Positions 4,528 through 18,402 of a DNA stretch of 64,000 bases are shown here, in pieces. This stretch comes from an uncultured Bacteroidota bacterium. GTDB taxonomy: Bacteria > Bacteroidota > Bacteroidia > Bacteroidales > P3. The stretch spans positions 62,001-126,000 of the forward strand of contig CACWPQ010000003.1 of NCBI GenBank assembly GCA_902762805.1, written 5' to 3'. The notes under the pieces were generated by a model, which worked only from the letters and a program-made list of their open reading frames with translations, ran no database searches and was not told where the DNA came from. A program made the position numbers and the translations under genes. Within the stretch, counting starts at the first letter, position 1. Every line of letters begins with the position of its first letter.

Positions 4528-5400
4528 TCAACCCCGTTTGGTTTTTAAGGATGATTGCCAGAGTTTTAATCTGAAGTATTGACGCATGAGAAAAGCTATG
4601 AGTCTTGGGTTTGGGGAACTAGCAATCTTCCTGTATAACAGAAGCAGCTGCTCTCTTTTGTCAGTTCCATGTAGTTTATCGTAGTAGTAGAGGATTGTGT
4701 TTTTGCTTAAAGGAAGTCGCTTGTTTTTCCCAGTATCATGATAGATATACTTAAAATGTGGTGAATTCCTGACATTTTCATGGTCGGATAGGAAGTAAGG
4801 ACATGCCAGTTTTGTTTTCCATAACGCGTAAGGGAATGATAATTGGTCCCGTCGCGAATATTTGTCGATGCAGTCCCACCATAGTCTATCGAAATCCTGT
4901 ATTATCTTCTGGGAATGTACGCGGAATAGAAATCCCGTTTCCCACAAGCCATTGTCGGACGGATATTTTTCTTTCAGAAGACGGTGTGTCCAGTCAAGAT
5001 ACGTGCGTTCTTGTTCCCATCCGATTAGGATTAATTTATCAGCCTCGGAATATACACAGTTGCGCTCCGTGTGACACATACTGGATATTAGTACTCCGCT
5101 ATCAAAAAGGTCTTTTATGCGTGAAAAAACAAAGTCAGACGTGATAATTATATTGCCATCAACCCAAACACTAGCTTGATATTCAGTCAATAGTTGTTCG
5201 GGATGGGTTTTCACCCAGCGTGCAATTCGTGTTGGGTCTGGGTTGGTGTACGGGATTTTGCGCACCTGCCAAATGCCCAATTTCTCTTCAGAAACATCGT
5301 TGGAAAACAAGATATAGTCAAACCGTTCGTCAACTGCTTCCGGTTGGAGAATGTTGTCATAGCCACCAACGATTGCTGTATAGACGGCAAAACGGTTCAT
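4528..5400 (-). CDS. DUF616-type glycosyltransferase
   Basis: The 290-residue product begins RFAVYTAIVGGYDNILQP and contains WVDGNIIITSDF and ETGFLFRVHS. This pattern matches the DUF616 (TOD1/MUCI70-like) glycosyltransferase family often found in bacterial capsule clusters. The WVDGN segment sits where GT-A enzymes carry their acidic metal site. There is no signal peptide or membrane span. It lies four bases after the acyltransferase gene. The assignment rests on remembered family motifs, and the transferred sugar is unknown. Confidence 0.7.
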   Translation of the reverse strand: MNRFAVYTAIVGGYDNILQPEAVDERFDYILFSNDVSEEKLGIWQVRKIPYTNPDPTRIARWVKTHPEQLLTEYQASVWVDGNIIITSDFVFSRIKDLFDSGVLISSMCHTERNCVYSEADKLILIGWEQERTYLDWTHRLLKEKYPSDNGLWETGFLFRVHSQKIIQDFDRLWWDCIDKYSRRDQLSFPYALWKTKLACPYFLSDHENVRNSPHFKYIYHDTGKNKRLPLSKNTILYYYDKLHGTDKREQLLLLYRKIASSPNPRLIAFLMRQYFRLKLWQSSLKTKRG

Positions 5401-5404
5401 GATG

Positions 5405-6430
5405 TTACCTTTGTTTTACTGTTGCCTGGTTCCATATACGATCAACAGGAATCATGCAGAGCTTTCTAATTTGGTCTAGGGTTACCGACACACAGAATCT
5501 GACGACTATCCATACAACAGCCACACCAATATAGGTTATGCCAAATAATTGTCCCAGGAATTCTTCTGGTAGACATTTGAAGACAGGCAGATTAAATAGA
5601 TATACGGCCAAAGAACTTTTGGCAATGATGTTGATGTATTTGTTATGGAAATCAAGGGTGGTAAATAGGCAGAAAAATGAAATCGATGCAGACAAAGTAA
5701 ACGGATTATTATATGTGGTAGGTCTCCATGTTGGTATGTGTATCCATGTGTAATTGACTATTGTCAAGAAAGCCCAAATAAGGCTGGATCCTATAAATAC
5801 ACAATACAACTTGTTTTTATGTTGCTTGATTTTATTCGCGGTAATGTATTTGCGAATATAGCCAGCAATCAGGTATAACCAGATGAAATGTCCTACAGAA
5901 TAGCCAGTGTTGTTAAAAATGTCTACATTGCGGATAAAACCAAAATACAGGCAATAAACAGAAAGGATGATAATTGCTCGCCTATAATTGGTTTTACTCA
6001 TTTGTTCCATTGCTGAATTAAGCACTGGAGAGAGGAAGTATAACGCCGTATAAGCCAAGATAAACCACTTGGAGGTTTGTGTCATGGATGTAAGCGATTT
6101 GAGGATAATAGTTCCAAAGGAAAGCAATTCCCGATGAAAGACGTAGGTATCCATCAAACAGTTAATGAACATATAGAACGCACAGAAGATAAATAGATTT
6201 AAGACACCTTTCCATTTAATTTTTATGCCAAAATAACCAGATATAAGAACGAAAAGATTGACTCCTATATAAACAAAACTATTGGCGACTGTGGCGATTT
6301 GCCACCCATCATCAAACACATTACCATATACAATGCTCCCTTTGTATTTTTCAATGATTGTATGGTGCATTGTAATCATCAAAATGGCAATTATTCGCAA
6401 TAATTCCATGTTTGATTGGCGTGACTTCAT
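5405..6430 (-). CDS. Acyltransferase 3 family membrane protein
   Basis: The protein of 341 residues is a multi-span membrane protein of the acyltransferase-3 family, which O-acetylates or otherwise acylates surface glycans. Near the N-terminus it has NMELLRIIAILMITMHHT, with the His of the family's active-site region, and about ten hydrophobic segments follow. I choose ATG 6430, whose bases overlap the upstream stop as ATGA; a GTG eight codons further upstream is also open. The DNA is markedly AT-rich compared with the genes at 12-18 kb, a sign of acquisition by transfer. The acceptor sugar is unknown. Confidence 0.85.
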   Translation of the reverse strand: MKSRQSNMELLRIIAILMITMHHTIIEKYKGSIVYGNVFDDGWQIATVANSFVYIGVNLFVLISGYFGIKIKWKGVLNLFIFCAFYMFINCLMDTYVFHRELLSFGTIILKSLTSMTQTSKWFILAYTALYFLSPVLNSAMEQMSKTNYRRAIIILSVYCLYFGFIRNVDIFNNTGYSVGHFIWLYLIAGYIRKYITANKIKQHKNKLYCVFIGSSLIWAFLTIVNYTWIHIPTWRPTTYNNPFTLSASISFFCLFTTLDFHNKYINIIAKSSLAVYLFNLPVFKCLPEEFLGQLFGITYIGVAVVWIVVRFCVSVTLDQIRKLCMIPVDRIWNQATVKQR

Positions 6431-7587
6431 TTTAGACTCCAGATTATTTTCCACATCTCCCTTACCTTATTTTGAATTTTGGACACGCTGGCCTCCAAAG
6501 AGGCTCTTTGTTTTTTGTTCTTTTCTTCGTCCAGTATATTTTGTAGCAATACTTGTTGATTTTCGGGAGAATCGTTTATCTCAATCATGCCATTCTCTAC
6601 ACCATAATCTTTGAATAACTCTTGGTATTTGTGGCTCCATCCGGTGGCAATACAGGGTACACATGTGTTTAATGCAGATGCCACTCCATGAAAACGGGAT
6701 GAAATAACACAATAAGCAGTAGAGATCATGCCTTTTACTTCTAGTGCATTCAGGTTATCAACAAGTTCTATGGGAGAGTCAAGGTTCTGTATTATTTGTG
6801 TTGCAATTTTTGTATCGGCGTCTCCTTCGTGATTTAGAAGATAAGGAATCTTGCCATAAGTCTGAGCATGAGAGATTATTTTTTTGACGAAACCAAGATA
6901 CTCATCGAAAGTTAAGTCGGATTTGTCAAATAAACGGCAATTGGGGATAATGCAGACGCCTCCATACAAATGTTTGTATTCTGGAGGAATAATTGGGGTG
7001 ACCAACGACGTGTAATCACAGAACCTCTTTACTTTTGACATGTTAATTTGAGCACACTCCTCAAGGTATGCCCACGATACATCATCCCGACAAAACACAA
7101 TGTCAGCATATTTGTCGACTTCTCTGATTCCGTCTTTCATGCTCTTTTTGTTGAGAGGCCCAAATGCTTGTGGCATTAAAACGATTTTTGCACCATGTCG
7201 TTTATGCGACTCTAATAGATGACGTCGGTTTTCCATCCTCTTCTGAGAGTGGTTCCATACATCCGAGTAATGAAATCCACTCCCATCAATGAGATAGTCA
7301 GTCCCATTAACATAATATTTATCCTCAAAAATAGTTGATATCGGGATATGCAGTCTTTTACAAATACCTATGATATGGTTTCGTTTGCACCAGTCGCGAA
7401 TTTTTTGAACGGGTTTTAGTCTTACATCTAATGTCGTGGAAATATAGTTCAACCCCTGTTTGGCCGAGTCAATGGGTAGATAAACAATGGAGCCTGGATC
7501 TTTTTTTTCTATCTCCTGCAGCATTGCATACATCATCAATTCTGCTCCCTTATTTAGCGTTCCAATACCTTCTAAAGTAACAATCAT
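6427..7587 (-). CDS. Polysaccharide pyruvyl transferase family protein
   Basis: This 386-residue protein matches the polysaccharide pyruvyl transferase family (CsaB/WcaK type), which moves a ketal pyruvate from phosphoenolpyruvate to a sugar. Diagnostic segments are GIGTLNKGAELMMYAML at the N-terminus, LMPQAFGPLN in the middle, and SSRFHGVASALNTCVPCIA near the C-terminus, the usual His- and Arg-containing signature. It overlaps the aldo/keto reductase gene upstream and the acyltransferase downstream by four bases each (ATGA), so the three are translationally coupled. It lies next to an FrhB-like gene, a common pairing in capsule clusters. Confidence 0.88.
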   Translation of the reverse strand: MIVTLEGIGTLNKGAELMMYAMLQEIEKKDPGSIVYLPIDSAKQGLNYISTTLDVRLKPVQKIRDWCKRNHIIGICKRLHIPISTIFEDKYYVNGTDYLIDGSGFHYSDVWNHSQKRMENRRHLLESHKRHGAKIVLMPQAFGPLNKKSMKDGIREVDKYADIVFCRDDVSWAYLEECAQINMSKVKRFCDYTSLVTPIIPPEYKHLYGGVCIIPNCRLFDKSDLTFDEYLGFVKKIISHAQTYGKIPYLLNHEGDADTKIATQIIQNLDSPIELVDNLNALEVKGMISTAYCVISSRFHGVASALNTCVPCIATGWSHKYQELFKDYGVENGMIEINDSPENQQVLLQNILDEEKNKKQRASLEASVSKIQNKVREMWKIIWSLK

Positions 7588-8489
7588 CTTATTTTTTGCT
7601 TTTTATAAAAATCAATGGTTTTCGCTATGAGTGTGTTAGAAAGCCTCAATCGTTGTAATAAAAATTTTTTCTTACTTTTCTTGTCAAATCTTGTTCTAGG
7701 ATTAAAGCGAACCCTTTTTCCACGGTCCATTTGATTTATGGCACAAATATCTTCCTCATTTAATTGGAAATCAAATACACCAATGTTTTCTTTTATATGT
7801 ATTTCGGAGGATGATGCTGGTATTGGTATACATTGGGTATCAATGTTCCATCTTAAAATAACTTGATTTACGGTCTTGTGATATTTGTTCGCAATATGTC
7901 TTAAAGTTTCATTGGCATTTAGTTCGTTGTCCATTCTCGCCAGGGGAGAATAGGACATTACTTGAATATTCTCATTTTTGCATAATTTGACCACCTCTTC
8001 TTGCTGAAATAGTGGGTGTCGTTCAAACTGGTTTATCATCGGTTTGACACGACATATTCTCAATATTTCTTTTAGATACCCGACATCAAAATTACATACA
8101 CCAATAGCCGCGCATTTGCCAGTTAGATACAAATCTTCCATTGCTTTCCACTGCATTTTCCATAAATACGGGAAAGGCCAGTGCAGGAGATAGATGGTTC
8201 TATCTGCTTTTGTACCAAGTGCAGACATACTCTCAGCAAAGCACTCTTCAAGGTCTTTTGAACGCAAGGGTTGAGAGAATTTGGTAATAACGGTTATGTT
8301 CGAGTCGCCTACTTTGTGCAGTCCATTGCCGACGTATGCTTCGTTGAGATAGTTGTCGGAAGTGTCTATCATACGATATCCCTCATTGTACGCAATCGGA
8401 ACATTATCTTCTAATACCTCCCGTTGTGGGAATGTTCCATAGCCAATGATTGGTATTTTGTAGCCGTTGTACAACTCTAATTCCTGCAT
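7584..8489 (-). CDS. Aldo/keto reductase
   Basis: A complete 301-residue aldo/keto reductase with a TIM-barrel fold using NAD(P)H. The catalytic tetrad is visible: Asp42 in RMIDTSDNY, Tyr47, Lys70 in VITKFSQ and His103 in YLLHWPFP. The C-terminal segment CIPIPASSSEIHIKENI is the cofactor phosphate-binding stretch. Inside a capsule operon it may reduce a sugar or polyol precursor, but this is inference; the substrate cannot be read from sequence. It starts one base after the stop of the fusion gene upstream and overlaps the pyruvyl transferase start by four bases. It is AT-rich like its neighbours. Confidence 0.88.
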   Translation of the reverse strand: MQELELYNGYKIPIIGYGTFPQREVLEDNVPIAYNEGYRMIDTSDNYLNEAYVGNGLHKVGDSNITVITKFSQPLRSKDLEECFAESMSALGTKADRTIYLLHWPFPYLWKMQWKAMEDLYLTGKCAAIGVCNFDVGYLKEILRICRVKPMINQFERHPLFQQEEVVKLCKNENIQVMSYSPLARMDNELNANETLRHIANKYHKTVNQVILRWNIDTQCIPIPASSSEIHIKENIGVFDFQLNEEDICAINQMDRGKRVRFNPRTRFDKKSKKKFLLQRLRLSNTLIAKTIDFYKKQKIR

Positions 8490-8490
8490 T

Positions 8491-11364
8491 TCAAACGAAT
8501 GTATATCTTGCTTTTAGGATTTGCAATGTGCTGTCGGGAACAAATCTGGAGATTTCGTCAAAATTCTTCTCTTTTAGCAATTGACGTACCAATGTGGCAT
8601 TAATAATGGTTTTGTCCTCCGTGGCCAGACGTGGTATCTCTATAAATTCGATTCCATAGCGCGGTAGAATTTCATTCATTGTTTCATTGTACTTTTTAGT
8701 CACCACGTCGAATGGTTCTTCTCCGACAAAGCGTTTTGTGATATGGAGTGCAGGGGCAATTTTGCTTCCAAATATCTCTACATCTGAGGACATGTCAAAC
8801 TCTTTCTCTTTCACATAATCTTTCATGAAGTATTCGGGGAAGGTTAGTGCAGATATGATATAATTTCCACTAGGTATTACACAAACGTTAGGCAGGTCTG
8901 CTGTACCATTTTTCACCATTTCAAAACGATCTTTGAATTTGAAGAAGGATTTATCCTCCTCTACTACGAAAATATACAACCGATCCACTGAAGAAGAAGA
9001 TGCCTTTTCTATTAAGTAGCGATGTCCGAGGGTAAACGGATTGCAATTCATAACAATCGCGCCACACAAAGAAGCATTGTCATCTGGGTATTGTTCCTTT
9101 ATTTGCTGGATATATTGTGTAATTTCACTATCAAAAGCCTCGTTGTGAGCATGTTTTTTGAGGTAATAGTTGATGTGGTTGGACGCGAGTTTGTTTGTAT
9201 GGGTGTCGTCAAGGGGGCGGCATTTAAACTCGTGACTTATTAAATCCTGGCAGATTATCTGTGCAGCATTCCGATATCCGATAGCATTCATGTGTCCAGG
9301 ATAATTGTAATAGCACCATGCTGCCTCTGGATACTGATGCCATTCATGTGTGATATCTTTATACCACATCCCACGATGTTCAAATTGTTTTAATAGGTGA
9401 GGATCCGGGTGGTGTGTGTAAAACAGTACCATGTCACCTTCTTTCATGCCAAGCATGTCCAACAAGAAATTGTGGTTGATATTTTTGTCCTCACCTCCCC
9501 ATAAGCCATGGTTTATAACTTTTATATCACCATGGCCAGATTTATTAAGAATACATTGTATTTGGCTTGGAAGCGTGTCGCAATCCTCTACGGCATAACC
9601 AAATGCGCCGCAACGACCATATATGTGTAACGTCTGTTTATTGTCCAATGGTTGATGTGCGGTAATGCGTTTTCCTTCAACGATGTTAACGCATGTGCCT
9701 ACAATGTCTTCATGGCATAAATATTTGCCTTTTTTAATGATTTGGGTTATTTTACCTAGATCTTCGATATGTTCTTTTGTTACATCATCCCCGATAAGTT
9801 CTTTGAATTCTGACATATAGAAGTCAATGTCTTCATACATCTTCGGAAAACTTAAGTCGTTTTTCATTCGACGTAGTCCAGAAGGGGTGTATGGATAGTC
9901 CTCTTCTTTGCCTACACGGTGGTAGAAGTATACTGGAACTTTCTTATGATGCAGAAGTAGTAGTGCTTCTTTGAATGCAGCATATTGCTGAGCAGTAGTT
10001 GTGATTTTTTGTGGCTCAACAATGTTTTTTATTCCGCATTTTTGAGCAAGTTTTCTAATAATCTTGTTTGATGATATTAGTATACGATGTCTGTGAGATA
10101 ATACTCGCCAACTTTCCCTAAATGATTCTGCAAAAATGGCTTTCATGCCTAACTCCGAATAGTATTGTTCTATGAGAAGTCTGTCCTCTTGTGGTGTTTT
10201 TTTGCAAGAATAATTTAATGCTTTTTGAACCAAGCGATACACTTTTTTTAGATTATTTGTCTTGGGGGAAATTTGTTTTGACAAACACATTTCTAGTGCC
10301 TTGTTGTAACCATGTTTTGCAAGCAAAGAAAAGAACAATCTTCTTTTTTTATGTTGTAATGGAGGATGGGTAAGATGTCGGCAGCTTTCTATTGCGCAGT
10401 CTAAAGACGTAGTTTCATATGCAAGGTATTTGTCTGAATGATTCAACCACTCCTCACCTTTGGGTGAGTGCGTAATGACTAGTGATACGCCATTGGTTGG
10501 GTCCAGTGTAGTCCCCTTGTATTGCCAATAATCAGCTAGTGAGATGTCTGAAACTCTGTGCAGTGTCGCAAATGGGCATGATGCACACGAGGGGCGGTTG
10601 AACAAACCGTGAAGATAACCTCGGTGGAATGGATGTAATGCGGATAAGCAATGTTCGACACTGCCTTCATCAAATGTTATCTTGTACTGGTTGTTTCTCC
10701 ATCCCTGTGACTTGTCTCGAAAAATGACATCAATTATTTTTCGATTTTCGCTTTTCTCCTTTTCATCCCGGTATGCATTCCACACACGTTTAGAGGGAAT
10801 GCCATGGCACACAATATCACATGTAATGAGATTGTCATATTTTTTTTGCAGGAATGCCGTGAGCCCAGCAATCTGACATCCGACACCAGAAAACAAAACG
10901 AGTGTTCCCGAATCCAAGTCGGCTTTTACTTTTTCATAGATTCCGTCAATGTTGCTGGGAAGGTATTTGCTCCGTCGTAGTTTCTTAGCATCAAGTATAT
11001 TGTCAGCACGAATATGTTTTACATGGTCGATGTCTGCTAGACAGGCACCGTAAATAATGCCGCCATGATCCAGCACAGTCTCTGTCAGTGCCCAAAACGC
11101 ACCGCCCGAAGACACTTCAAGTAGTTCTTCATCGTTTCTTAATTGAGCAGCGAATGCTTGTGTTTTTTGAACAGGGGAGTCTGTTTTATGCACGATGACA
11201 GGACACGTATTCTCGCATTTATGACAAGAAATGCATGAATTGGTATCAATGTGCGGTTGAAGGAAGCCTTCACTATCCTCTTGCATAGTAATACTATTTG
11301 TCGGACAAATAGCTTTGCAAGCTTCACAACCACAGCATTCTGTGCTACCTGCAAGGGAGATCAT
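8491..11364 (-). CDS. Fusion: ferredoxin/FrhB-like + SGNH-like + citrate-lyase-ligase-like nucleotidyltransferase
   Basis: A 957-residue protein joins three modules. Residues 1-55 hold two 4Fe-4S motifs (Cys10, 13, 16, 20 and Cys44, 47, 50, 54), followed to about 430 by an F420-hydrogenase beta-subunit (FrhB)-like flavin and iron-sulfur region of the type seen in polysaccharide clusters (SSGGAFWAL, FSGVGCQIAGL, HGIPSKRVW). Residues about 579-710 resemble an SGNH hydrolase, with GRCGAFG at the nucleophile block and PGHMNAIGYRNAA at the His block. Residues 768-957 match the nucleotidyltransferase part of citrate lyase ligase (CitC), with NPFTLGHRYLIE as the HIGH-like motif and INATLVRQLL as the second signature. 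I choose ATG 11364, seven residues before the first cluster; ATG 11403 inside wzt is also open. The function is unknown; a role in activating or attaching a glycan substituent is inference. AT-rich. Confidence 0.72.
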   Translation of the reverse strand: MISLAGSTECCGCEACKAICPTNSITMQEDSEGFLQPHIDTNSCISCHKCENTCPVIVHKTDSPVQKTQAFAAQLRNDEELLEVSSGGAFWALTETVLDHGGIIYGACLADIDHVKHIRADNILDAKKLRRSKYLPSNIDGIYEKVKADLDSGTLVLFSGVGCQIAGLTAFLQKKYDNLITCDIVCHGIPSKRVWNAYRDEKEKSENRKIIDVIFRDKSQGWRNNQYKITFDEGSVEHCLSALHPFHRGYLHGLFNRPSCASCPFATLHRVSDISLADYWQYKGTTLDPTNGVSLVITHSPKGEEWLNHSDKYLAYETTSLDCAIESCRHLTHPPLQHKKRRLFFSLLAKHGYNKALEMCLSKQISPKTNNLKKVYRLVQKALNYSCKKTPQEDRLLIEQYYSELGMKAIFAESFRESWRVLSHRHRILISSNKIIRKLAQKCGIKNIVEPQKITTTAQQYAAFKEALLLLHHKKVPVYFYHRVGKEEDYPYTPSGLRRMKNDLSFPKMYEDIDFYMSEFKELIGDDVTKEHIEDLGKITQIIKKGKYLCHEDIVGTCVNIVEGKRITAHQPLDNKQTLHIYGRCGAFGYAVEDCDTLPSQIQCILNKSGHGDIKVINHGLWGGEDKNINHNFLLDMLGMKEGDMVLFYTHHPDPHLLKQFEHRGMWYKDITHEWHQYPEAAWCYYNYPGHMNAIGYRNAAQIICQDLISHEFKCRPLDDTHTNKLASNHINYYLKKHAHNEAFDSEITQYIQQIKEQYPDDNASLCGAIVMNCNPFTLGHRYLIEKASSSSVDRLYIFVVEEDKSFFKFKDRFEMVKNGTADLPNVCVIPSGNYIISALTFPEYFMKDYVKEKEFDMSSDVEIFGSKIAPALHITKRFVGEEPFDVVTKKYNETMNEILPRYGIEFIEIPRLATEDKTIINATLVRQLLKEKNFDEISRFVPDSTLQILKARYTFV

Positions 11365-11380: not shown

Positions 11381-12697
11381 TTAGTATTCGAGCTCTTTCC
11401 CATCAATGCACCAGCAATGCTCTGCCAGCACGATGTGCCCTGAAACGTGCGTTGGCATTGAATGCCCTCCCACGTGGAAGAAATCATCGTCAAGCACCTC
11501 CATCGGAATTTTTGACCTTATAAAGTCCCCGGCATACTTGTTTACATTTATAAGAACGCTTAATTTGTATTTCCCTGCGGTGAGTGGTAAATGGGGGATG
11601 ATCAAATCCGCGTAGTGAGATCCTTTGTGCATGTTAAAGTTAGAGTACTTCAAGTATGAAGCAAATGACATTAATGACATGTTTCGGTCGTCATTAACTC
11701 CAATGGATATATAACAGTTACTGGCAAAACTCTCTATGAGGTTCTCTATTTCGTAATGTATTCGTATTTTCAGTGCTCGGCCTGTATAAGGATATGTGGG
11801 AGTGTCATCGGTTGGATTAAGATACTGTAAATCAGTGATACGGGCTTGCCCAGTAACACCGGGTTCACGGGTTAATTCGGGGATGGCAATGTCCTCGTGT
11901 TCTGTATTCGCTTCAAGGTAGAAGTCTATCGAGTCGGTTGCTGTTCCCATAAATTCAACTGTACCATTTTTCAGCACAACACCGCTCCTGCACAGGCTTC
12001 TTACGCTATCCATATTGTGTGAAACAAATAACACCGTTCTCCCCTCTCCTTTAGAAATTGTTTGCATCTTCCCGATGGCCTTCTTCTGGAATTCGGCGTC
12101 GCCGACGGCAAGTACCTCGTCCACGACGAGGATGTCGGGGTCGAGGTGGGCGGCGACGGCGAAGCCGAGGCGGACGCGCATGCCGCTCGAGTAGCGCTTG
12201 ACGGGAGTGTCGATATAGCGCTCGCAACCGCTGAAGTCTATGATCTCGTCCAGCTTGCGGGTGATTTCGGCTTTGGTCATGCCGAGGATGGCACCGTTGA
12301 GGAAGATGTTCTCGCGACCGGTCATCTCGGGATGCATGCCGGTGCCCACCTCGAGCAGCGAGGCGATGCGTCCCTTGGCACGAATGTCGCCGGTGGTGGG
12401 GCTGGTGATGCGGGAGAGGAGTTTCAGCAGGGTGCTCTTGCCGGCTCCGTTCTTGCCGATGATGCCCACGACGTCGCCCTGCTCCACCTTGAAGTCGATA
12501 TCGCGCAGCGCCCAGACGAAGTTGCTTTCGCCCTTGGTGCCGCGGTCGTTGGTCTCGCCGATGGTCAGGTAGGGGTCTTCTTTCTTTTGCACGCTGGTAA
12601 TCCACCAGCGCTTGATATCTTCGCGGAAGGTGCCGGTGGAGACGAGTCCGAGGCGGTAGAGTTTGCTGACGTGGTTGAATTCTATTGCTGTTGCCAT
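11381..12697 (-). CDS. wzt: Wzt-type ABC transporter ATPase with C-terminal carbohydrate-binding domain
   Basis: This 438-residue protein is the ATPase of a polysaccharide ABC exporter. Its Walker A is [17 protein letters not shown], the signature is [14 protein letters not shown], Walker B is [13 protein letters not shown] and the H-loop is [10 protein letters not shown]. The remaining 170 or so residues form a beta-rich domain like the Wzt C-terminal domain that reads the glycan end. It pairs with the permease at 15823-16692. The start overlaps the end of fcl by 16 bases. Base composition changes abruptly at about 12062: the nucleotide-binding half is GC-rich, and everything after it, including this C-terminal domain, is AT-rich. 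Confidence 0.92.
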
Positions 12698-14731: not shown

Positions 14732-15769
14732 TTACATTTTATGCAGTATGCTGCGGGGTTTGGCGGCGTGGGCCGTGAGGCTGGCCATGAAGAGGCGCCA
14801 TGCGGGGTCGTGGCTGTAGGCCAGGCGGTGTTTCCAGCGGTTGGCGCGGTAGCGGCGCAGCTTCCACAGCAGGCGTCCAAGGTTTTCTTCCTTATGCTCT
14901 TCGAGCGAGCCGTAGACGGTGTCGTGTTCCACGCGCCCGATGAGGGCTGTGTCTTCGCTGCGGTGCAGCGGGTTCTCGTTGCCGAAGCGGTGCGCTACTA
15001 TCGCGTTGAGCACACCTACAAACCCTTCCATTCCGGAGTCTTTGGCCGCTTTTGCAACGACGTCCCAGTCGGCATCGCTGCGGTGGGCAGAGGCCAGCAG
15101 GTGCCAGTCGACGAGGTCGCGCAGGGTGATGCGGCTGGCGGCGAAGTGGCCTGCCATGTGGCGCAGGAGGAAGAGGATTTCGAAGGTGGGCAGTTGGGAG
15201 TGGGTAGTTGCCAGTTCTTTGAGTTGCGCCTCGAAGCGGCGGTTGCTGGGGGGAGTGTGGCGGTTGACGAAGTCGTAGTGGCTTTCGACGGTGACGCCGC
15301 GGTAGTCGTATTTGGTGTGGTGGTGCGAGTCGTTGCTCACCTGCACGCCCAGGTGTTTGGCTGCCAACTGGTCGGCTTCGTGGTGGCGAGAGTAGAAGTA
15401 GAGGTCGAGGTCGCTGAACTCGCGCAGTTCGGCTTGCGGATAGAGCCGGGCCAGCCGTGTGCCTTTGAGTACGAGGGTTTCGATGCCATGCTGTTGCATG
15501 AGGGCTTCGATTTCCTGCTGCACGCCCAGTTGGTGGCGGTACCAGGCGGCTGCTTTCTCGCGCTCGGAGAGCCAGGGGATGAGCACGTTGCGCGGCGGCT
15601 TCTGCTCTTGGGGCAGGTGGCTGAAGGCCTCGCTGGCGAGGGCGGCCACGTGGTTCTGTTGCAGCAGTTGGAAGAGGCGTTGCCAGTCGGTGCCTGCAGG
15701 AGCATCCGTGGGTTCACCCGTCAATGCACTGCGCAATAACCCAAACAATACCGCTACTTCTCCTGTCAT
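14732..15769 (-). CDS. Nucleotidyltransferase-fold protein of capsule clusters
   Basis: A 345-residue protein with the signature of the NTP_transf_5-type nucleotidyltransferase family: [14 protein letters not shown], then [10 protein letters not shown] supplying the two metal-binding Asp residues, and a third acidic position in VESHYDF. The N-terminal third is helical. Such genes are frequent in Bacteroidota and Firmicutes polysaccharide operons, but no defined substrate is known to me. The stretch around residues 185-195 is encoded by a low-complexity repeat (15187-15217) that seems to be an in-frame insertion. Start at ATG 15769, 53 bases after the permease stop. Confidence 0.75.
15187..15217. 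repeat. Low-complexity in-frame insert in the nucleotidyltransferase gene
   Basis: On the coding strand the bases read as repeats of caact or ccaact with small changes (caactacccactcccaact), encoding roughly [11 protein letters not shown]. The composition differs from the GC-rich gene around it and resembles short pyrimidine repeats found between genes in this phylum. Confidence 0.5.
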
Positions 15770-17874: not shown

Positions 17875-18402
17875 TCAATCTATTTTCTTCAAGAAGTCGG
17901 GGTGGATATAGGCTGTAGCCACAGCCACCACGCCCGGTATCGTCACCACCAGCCGGCGGTCGCGCTTGATGCGCTTGATGTGTCCTTCGGCCCCTTTGAA
18001 CGGCCCCTGGGTCACCACCACACGGTCCCCCATGTGGTACTCCGGGCGGTCGTCGCCCAGCAGCGTCAGCCCCTGACGCCCGGCAGTCACCACAAAGCGG
18101 AACACCTCCATCTCCCTGTCGCCGATGCGCGCCGGCTTGCGGCTGCCGGGCAGGCGGTAGACTGCCATGCTGTCGTGGTGCTGCGCCGCGAGGTCGGCAA
18201 TCTGCTGCTCCGTGCAGCGAACAAACAGCAGCGACGCTATCACCTCGCTCGGCCTGAAACTCTCCCACCGCCGCTCCGCCACGTCGCTCAGCAGCGCAGC
18301 CCAACGGTTGAAAAACACCCTCATGGCATACCACCCTGCGGCAGTGCAGGGCATCGCTGCGGGCGATGCGGAGAGTCCGTGTGTCGGGTCGTTGTGTTCC
18401 AT
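17875..18402 (-). CDS. NusG-family transcription antiterminator (UpxY/RfaH-like)
   Basis: A 175-residue NusG paralogue and first gene of the capsule operon. The N-terminal domain starts GWYAMRVFFNRW, the NGN pattern of UpxY proteins. The C-terminal KOW domain reads GDRVVVTQGPFKGAEGHIKR. In Bacteroides such proteins bind RNA polymerase in the operon leader and let it read through long capsule operons, and that role is inferred here. The ATG at 18402 precedes a 16-residue extension; Met17 is an alternative start. A promoter and a roughly 165-base leader with a hairpin lie upstream. It is transcribed away from the DUF438 gene. Confidence 0.88.
   Translation of the reverse strand: MEHNDPTHGLSASPAAMPCTAAGWYAMRVFFNRWAALLSDVAERRWESFRPSEVIASLLFVRCTEQQIADLAAQHHDSMAVYRLPGSRKPARIGDREMEVFRFVVTAGRQGLTLLGDDRPEYHMGDRVVVTQGPFKGAEGHIKRIKRDRRLVVTIPGVVAVATAYIHPDFLKKID

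Follow-up and report, generated by a model that had tools for sequence, protein, structure and literature searches.

A FrhB-type reductase fused to a cysteine-bearing SGNH domain and a CitC-like ligase domain in a bacterial glycan cluster

Citrate lyase ligase (CitC; EC 6.2.1.22) converts ATP and acetate to acetyl-AMP and then delivers the acetyl group to a thiol on the acyl carrier protein of citrate lyase. For O- and N-acetylation of sugars, the general view is that the transferases draw on acetyl-CoA or on membrane relays. Known relatives of FrhB include the F420 enzymes and HCAR (7-hydroxymethyl chlorophyll a reductase, which turns CH2OH into CH3); the groups that such relatives reduce are C=C or C-OH in chlorophylls or F420, not thioesters. 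A further relative, BciB, is an 8-vinyl reductase (PMC4836224). Here, we describe a gene from an uncultured, gut-type Bacteroidota bacterium, found in a 64,000-nucleotide stretch of DNA (hereafter, the window), whose product joins parts related to FrhB and CitC through an SGNH-like domain. The original prediction had read this gene as a three-part fusion of iron-sulfur FrhB-like, SGNH-like, and CitC-type segments in one capsule protein, and all three parts were recovered (Table 1). Searches of the open-licence literature for FrhB with pyruvyl transferase, for CitC with SGNH, and for SGNH domains with a Cys nucleophile returned nothing relevant. This is a weak sign of novelty, in line with the earlier suggestion that the chemistry is undescribed.

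The fusion gene and its low-GC neighbourhood

The fusion gene runs from an ATG at 11364 to a stop codon at 8493-8491 on the minus strand. The open reading frame list started it at an upstream TTG; homologues encoded by split genes align from about the ATG at 11364. The full-length predicted model reached a pTM of 0.50, and its relative placement of the domains is unreliable. On inspection, neither a signal nor a membrane segment stood out, and the product is presumably a cytosolic, two-enzyme protein.

Table 1. Features of the fusion gene and its neighbours, in window coordinates
Feature	Position	Strand	Evidence
Fusion protein FrhB - SGNH(Cys) - CitC-like ligase, 957 aa	8491..11364	-	ORF and translation; same fusion in L033, L034, L035, L036, L090
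FrhB/HCAR-type reductase half, residues 1-365	10270..11364	-	FrhB_FdhB_C and Foldseek
Two [4Fe-4S] ferredoxin motifs, residues 10-56	11197..11337	-	Pfam Fer4_7 E 7e-08
N-terminal region of the SGNH-CitC half, residues 390-560 (unmatched stretch about 385-560)	9685..10197	-	No Pfam match; split genes start here
SGNH-fold domain, residues about 575-712	9229..9642	-	AF2/Foldseek, profile against PDB; L101 matches Lipase_GDSL
Block I Gly583-Arg584-Cys585, presumed nucleophile	9610..9618	-	GRC invariant in 14/14 aligned cassette members
Block V Gly-His691-Met-Asn	9286..9297	-	His invariant in 14/14 cassette members and 27/27 of the wider family
Citrate-lyase-ligase-type nucleotidyltransferase, residues 768-949	8518..9063	-	Pfam Citrate_ly_lig E 1.2e-65
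NPFTLGHR, HxGH-type ATP-binding signature, residues 775-782	9019..9042	-	N775, P776, F777, T778, G780, and H781 invariant, shared with true CitC
Aldo/keto reductase, cassette partner	7584..8489	-	Aldo_ket_red E 1.4e-43
Polysaccharide pyruvyl transferase, cassette partner	6427..7587	-	PS_pyruv_trans E 9.4e-25
Membrane acyltransferase (Acyl_transf_3), same low-GC island	5405..6454	-	E 1e-22; GC 36.2%
Wzt-type ABC exporter ATPase, upstream neighbour	11381..12697	-	ABC_tran, Wzt_C

A sequencing or assembly error could have fused two or three separate genes, and the two halves are indeed encoded by separate neighbouring genes in nine other genomes. However, the same in-frame fusion, with identical domain order, occurs in five further genomes from unrelated assemblies in several phyla (L033-L036 and L090), and the nearest of these fused homologues is 66% identical along its whole length. 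Given this recurrence, we rejected a joining artefact, to which we attach virtually no credence, and treat the fusion as real.

The fusion gene lies 16 bases after the gene for the Wzt-type ATPase and 1 base before the aldo/keto reductase gene, which in turn overlaps the pyruvyl transferase gene; the Acyl_transf_3 protein and glycosyltransferases follow. Upstream are genes for a GDP-mannose dehydratase, a second epimerase-family protein, an ABC-2 permease, and a sugar-phosphate transferase. From 5405 to 11364, a span that holds the fusion, aldo/keto reductase, pyruvyl transferase, and acyltransferase genes, GC content is 36-40% by gene vs. 59.6% over 20-64 kb of the window, and because of this difference the block looks to have been acquired together. 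Elsewhere in the window, an uncharacterised nucleotidyltransferase (NTP_transf_5; 14732-15769) sits between the GDP-mannose dehydratase and exporter permease genes. A NusG-like protein with a KOW motif, by analogy probably an UpxY-type antiterminator, is encoded at the operon head (17875-18402). A TOD1/MUCI70 glycosyltransferase-like protein (4528-5400), of a family named for plant proteins, has a homologue at the corresponding position in L033.

A CitC-like domain paired with an altered SGNH site

Profile searching placed the C-terminal segment firmly in Citrate_ly_lig, with both the NPFTxGH and the I(S/N)AT/SxxR motifs. The domain was 39-46% identical to reference CitC proteins, which came from E. 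coli, Klebsiella, Enterococcus, and Peptoclostridium loci annotated as citC-citDEF. Columns strongly conserved in CitC were common to the SGNH-linked group, with no switches beyond M/L and T/S.

The strength of this match (E 1.2e-65) could be explained by a citrate lyase ligase that had drifted into a capsule locus. However, the full-length TIGR00124 score was 207 bits, below the cut-off of 262, and no GNAT domain was matched in the window protein, which has the SGNH domain instead. Of 68 CitC-domain proteins, 39 carried a GNAT N-terminus, 28 an SGNH domain, and none both, with one outlier (L107). The GNAT-type CitC proteins formed one clade (98/98 support), and the window protein fell outside it. 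We found neither CitF nor a second Citrate_ly_lig domain in the window's genome (98% complete), and CitF was present in 1 of 22 other genomes holding the SGNH-CitC family; the domain therefore does not appear to serve citrate metabolism. On the score, the missing GNAT domain, the tree, and the missing CitF, we rejected a true citrate lyase ligase, and a drifted one is very improbable. Rather, the ligase domain appears to have been re-paired with another acceptor domain, one bearing its own thiol. The likeness to CitC (TIGR00124, PF08218) thus lies in the nucleotidyltransferase domain, its conserved positions and, by analogy, a putative ATP-dependent activation of acetate that ends on a thiol. 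The differences are an SGNH domain with its own Cys in place of GNAT, a separate branch of the tree, a setting in a glycan cluster, and a genome without citrate lyase.

CitC matches of 580-660 aa in the window's bacterial family seemed to be SGNH-CitC proteins but were read as GNAT-CitC-CitG, that is, as genuine citrate-lyase genes. In this family (L021-L032 and L058), a CitG-like C-terminus, identified by eye, is a common extension of CitC, giving proteins of about 580-660 aa. The outlier L107 (1-2736; Deltaproteobacteria bacterium Smac51) is a 911-aa hypothetical protein in which TPR repeats and a CitC domain accompany a GDS motif seen by eye; it is possibly a second, independent SGNH/CitC pairing.

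The original prediction of a fused CitC-type nucleotidyltransferase stood, with its role refined. With the strongly conserved CitC positions unswitched, this half most probably turns a carboxylic acid such as acetate into an acyl-adenylate and is less likely to be a nucleotidyltransferase of the sugar type. The domain does belong to the HxGH superfamily, its structural matches are phosphopantetheine adenylyltransferases, and a TagD-like cytidylyltransferase-type gene was seen by eye near one family member (L096). These observations would fit a plain nucleotidyltransferase reaction in which a nucleotide is joined to a phosphorylated substituent, in the style of TagD or LicC, with the SGNH domain attaching or trimming that substituent. 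Still, CitC proteins are by far the nearest sequences, the conserved positions are unswitched, and CTP_transf_like scores were far below Citrate_ly_lig scores in all members, so we consider such nucleotidyl transfer unlikely.

The SGNH part of the window protein alone had no direct match to any sequence family model. Its AF2 model (residues 390-762; pLDDT 88, pTM 0.86) resembled the GDSL lipases 1yzf and 4rw0 (Foldseek probability 0.97) and TesA (0.90), although with weak E values of 0.02-0.11; at these weak E values, the high-probability matches were SGNH enzymes, except CgnD. A profile built from the SGNH region of 16 family members and run against the PDB returned 9otv (E 2.9e-5), followed by 4rsh, 7c23, 1yzf, and TesA, all GDSL/SGNH esterases. 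One family member that retains GDS (L101) also matched Lipase_GDSL in Pfam (E 1.5e-6). The SGNH reading of this segment therefore holds.

As the original prediction stated, Gly-Arg-Cys stands where Gly-Asp-Ser is usual. Among the SGNH-CitC members examined, the nucleophile position held Cys in 24 of 27 and Ser in the other three (L092, L096, and L101). Because only Cys or Ser is tolerated at what is the nucleophile place of the fold, and because the block V His is invariant, the Cys is best read as a nucleophile, as had been suggested; replacement by Ser in this manner would be less expected of a structural Cys. In common with SGNH/GDSL hydrolases and SGNH acyltransferases (TesA-like esterases), the family has the flavodoxin-like fold (at weak Foldseek E values) and the block I Gly, block II NxG, and block V His, which are invariant across the diverse set. 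It differs in that the block I Ser of GDS is replaced by the Cys of GRC and the block III Asn (GxND) is missing, with FYxxH/D there instead. An Asp occurs at -4 from the block V His in 11 of 14 members and an Asn in 3 of 14, position -3 is variable, and the canonical DxxH Asp appears to be missing. Judging from the block III Asn and this Asp, the fusion would have an altered SGNH site with changed catalytic geometry.

The FrhB half and its cassette across genomes

The two complete 4Fe-4S motifs of the original prediction (C10xxC13xxC16xxxC20P and C44xxC47xxC50xxxC54P) were present, and none of their eight Cys varied among those cassette homologues whose sequence spans this part. C163, C186, C260, C263, and C328 of the FrhB half were likewise invariant. 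FrhB_FdhB_C matched residues 156-317 (E 1.7e-19), and the best Foldseek match to residues 1-365 was HCAR (5dqr, E 2.8e-11), followed by F420-reducing enzymes (6qii, E 7.7e-9). With this domain, two N-terminal [4Fe-4S] motifs, and an HCAR/FrhB fold, the N-terminal half reads as a putative reductase with [4Fe-4S] and flavin, akin to HCAR, BciB, and FrhB. It resembles HCAR, BciB, and FrhB/FpoF in these features but differs from them in being fused to an acyl-activating/transfer half, and its substrate is presumably a glycan precursor.

Of the 15 GRC-type SGNH-CitC loci (the window, L033-L045, and L090), 6 had FrhB fused and 9 had it as a neighbour; this 15/15 linkage includes some ascertainment because the search for loci relied partly on FrhB-derived patterns. 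In L037 and L039, FrhB and SGNH-CitC are separated by an acyltransferase gene or pieces of one (Acyl_transf_3 by Pfam in L037, homologous ORFs in L039). An aldo/keto reductase was found in 11 of the 15 cassettes, one of them degenerate and one fused to an SDR. A pyruvyl transferase gene was found in 13, in agreement with the earlier statement that FrhB-like and pyruvyl-transferase genes often sit together. By contrast, FrhB, aldo/keto reductase, and pyruvyl transferase were all absent from 12/12 other SGNH-CitC loci. The association of FrhB with GRC gave a Fisher p of 6e-8, a value uncorrected for relatedness and for the FrhB-derived search patterns.

The GRC, FrhB-linked members formed one group (100/99 support), in whose tree the fused and split forms require four changes and the hosts (Bacteroidota, Lachnospiraceae, Riflebacteria, and Lentisphaerae) are scrambled. 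From this pattern, the cassette appears to be mobile between phyla. Every named carrier of the cassette is a metagenome-assembled genome. A phylum-wide search of 395 genomes found no further cassette, and searches of the Lentisphaerae class and Riflebacteria phylum found none beyond those already known; the cassette is rare and patchy. Judged by their alignment and tree, the fused and split forms look equivalent, and the two halves probably work together in either state.

Other FrhB fusions probably point the same way, to two cassette halves that cooperate whether fused or not. In a genome of the window's genus (L007:1447-3282), FrhB is fused to a NeuD/WbbJ/maltose-O-acetyltransferase-like hexapeptide domain. 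This is an independent parallel in that FrhB and an acyltransferase share one chain, but the chain has, in place of SGNH-CitC, a left-handed beta-helix acetyltransferase domain of the acetyl-CoA type. A single ORF in L090 (12109-13980) joins FrhB to the N-terminal half of the pyruvyl transferase, the rest of which is in the next ORF; this transferase may be frameshifted or split.

The SGNH-CitC module is its own, wider family, mostly lacking FrhB, whose members occur in surface-polysaccharide loci but also in other places. The novelty of the fusion lies in the link to FrhB; the SGNH-CitC pairing is not unique to the window protein. In Lachnospiraceae (L091-L101), SGNH-CitC proteins of 500-800 aa that lack FrhB are numerous, both in surface-glycan loci and in others. 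Some of these have N-terminal CBS domains (L097, E 2.1e-6), which perhaps sense adenylates. In Riflebacteria, a 1146-aa ORF (L102:72-3509) fuses SGNH-CitC to a GT4-type glycosyltransferase, tying the module directly to glycan synthesis.

A proposed acylation chemistry and its implications

We propose that the fusion protein makes acetyl-AMP, loads the acetyl group onto its SGNH Cys, and acetylates a glycan precursor without acetyl-CoA, beside a flavin/Fe-S reduction step; we judge this scheme evenly poised between right and wrong. Its CitC-like domain would adenylate a small carboxylic acid, likely acetate (ATP + acetate -> acetyl-AMP + PPi), as conservation suggests. The acetyl group would then pass from acetyl-AMP to Cys585 as a thioester, a step suggested by the Cys/Ser pattern and the thiol chemistry of CitC. 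Gene context and the L007 parallel point to a final transfer from Cys585 to a hydroxyl or amino group of a cytosolic glycan precursor, which would be the attachment of a glycan substituent that the original prediction envisaged. The net activity would be that of a CoA-independent, ATP-powered acyltransferase. The FrhB half would probably reduce the same precursor, before or after acylation, with the cassette aldo/keto reductase and pyruvyl transferase.

A single scheme that covers the fusion, the Cys nucleophile, FrhB, and the aldo/keto reductase would be thiol-templated carboxylate reduction. The CitC-like domain would adenylate an acid, Cys585 would hold it as a thioester, FrhB would use low-potential electrons to take it to the aldehyde, and the aldo/keto reductase would carry it on to an alcohol, which would make the system a functional analogue of carboxylic acid reductase. 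Yet the occurrence of SGNH-CitC without FrhB or aldo/keto reductase in the 12 other loci argues that this half has a function of its own, and the reductions known for relatives of FrhB are of C=C or C-OH rather than of thioesters (BciB, PMC4836224). We therefore regard carboxylate reduction as quite doubtful. A little less probable still is that the acetyl serves as a disposable activating group, with SGNH-CitC acetylating a sugar hydroxyl from free acetate and ATP and FrhB, as a relative of HCAR, reductively removing the acetoxy group, in an acetate-assisted deoxygenation of the glycan precursor.

We also considered that the pyruvyl transferase and FrhB, as an enolpyruvyl reductase, might form a lactyl ether, and dropped this idea on comparison with Klebsiella cps loci. 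K22 carries 4-O-[(S)-1-carboxyethyl]-GlcA, according to the title of a reference listed in PMC7246685, and K22 and K37 share their cps genes (PMC3857182). In K8, K22, K37, and K66, pyruvyl-transferase genes are present although pyruvylation is absent (PMC4616057). Since an F420-hydrogenase gene occurred in only 1 of 79 cps loci and K22 and K37 share theirs, FrhB seems to be unneeded there.

Our preferred reading remains acetylation through the SGNH Cys. If it is true, a family that charges its own Cys from acetate and ATP would represent a different route to glycan acylation, one that would suit gut and rumen habitats, which are anaerobic and rich in acetate. Many polysaccharide-locus proteins whose annotation now stops at hypothetical or citrate lyase ligase would also gain a function. 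Finally, the fusion gives the puzzling FrhB proteins of capsule loci a definite chemical partner, and this makes their role testable.
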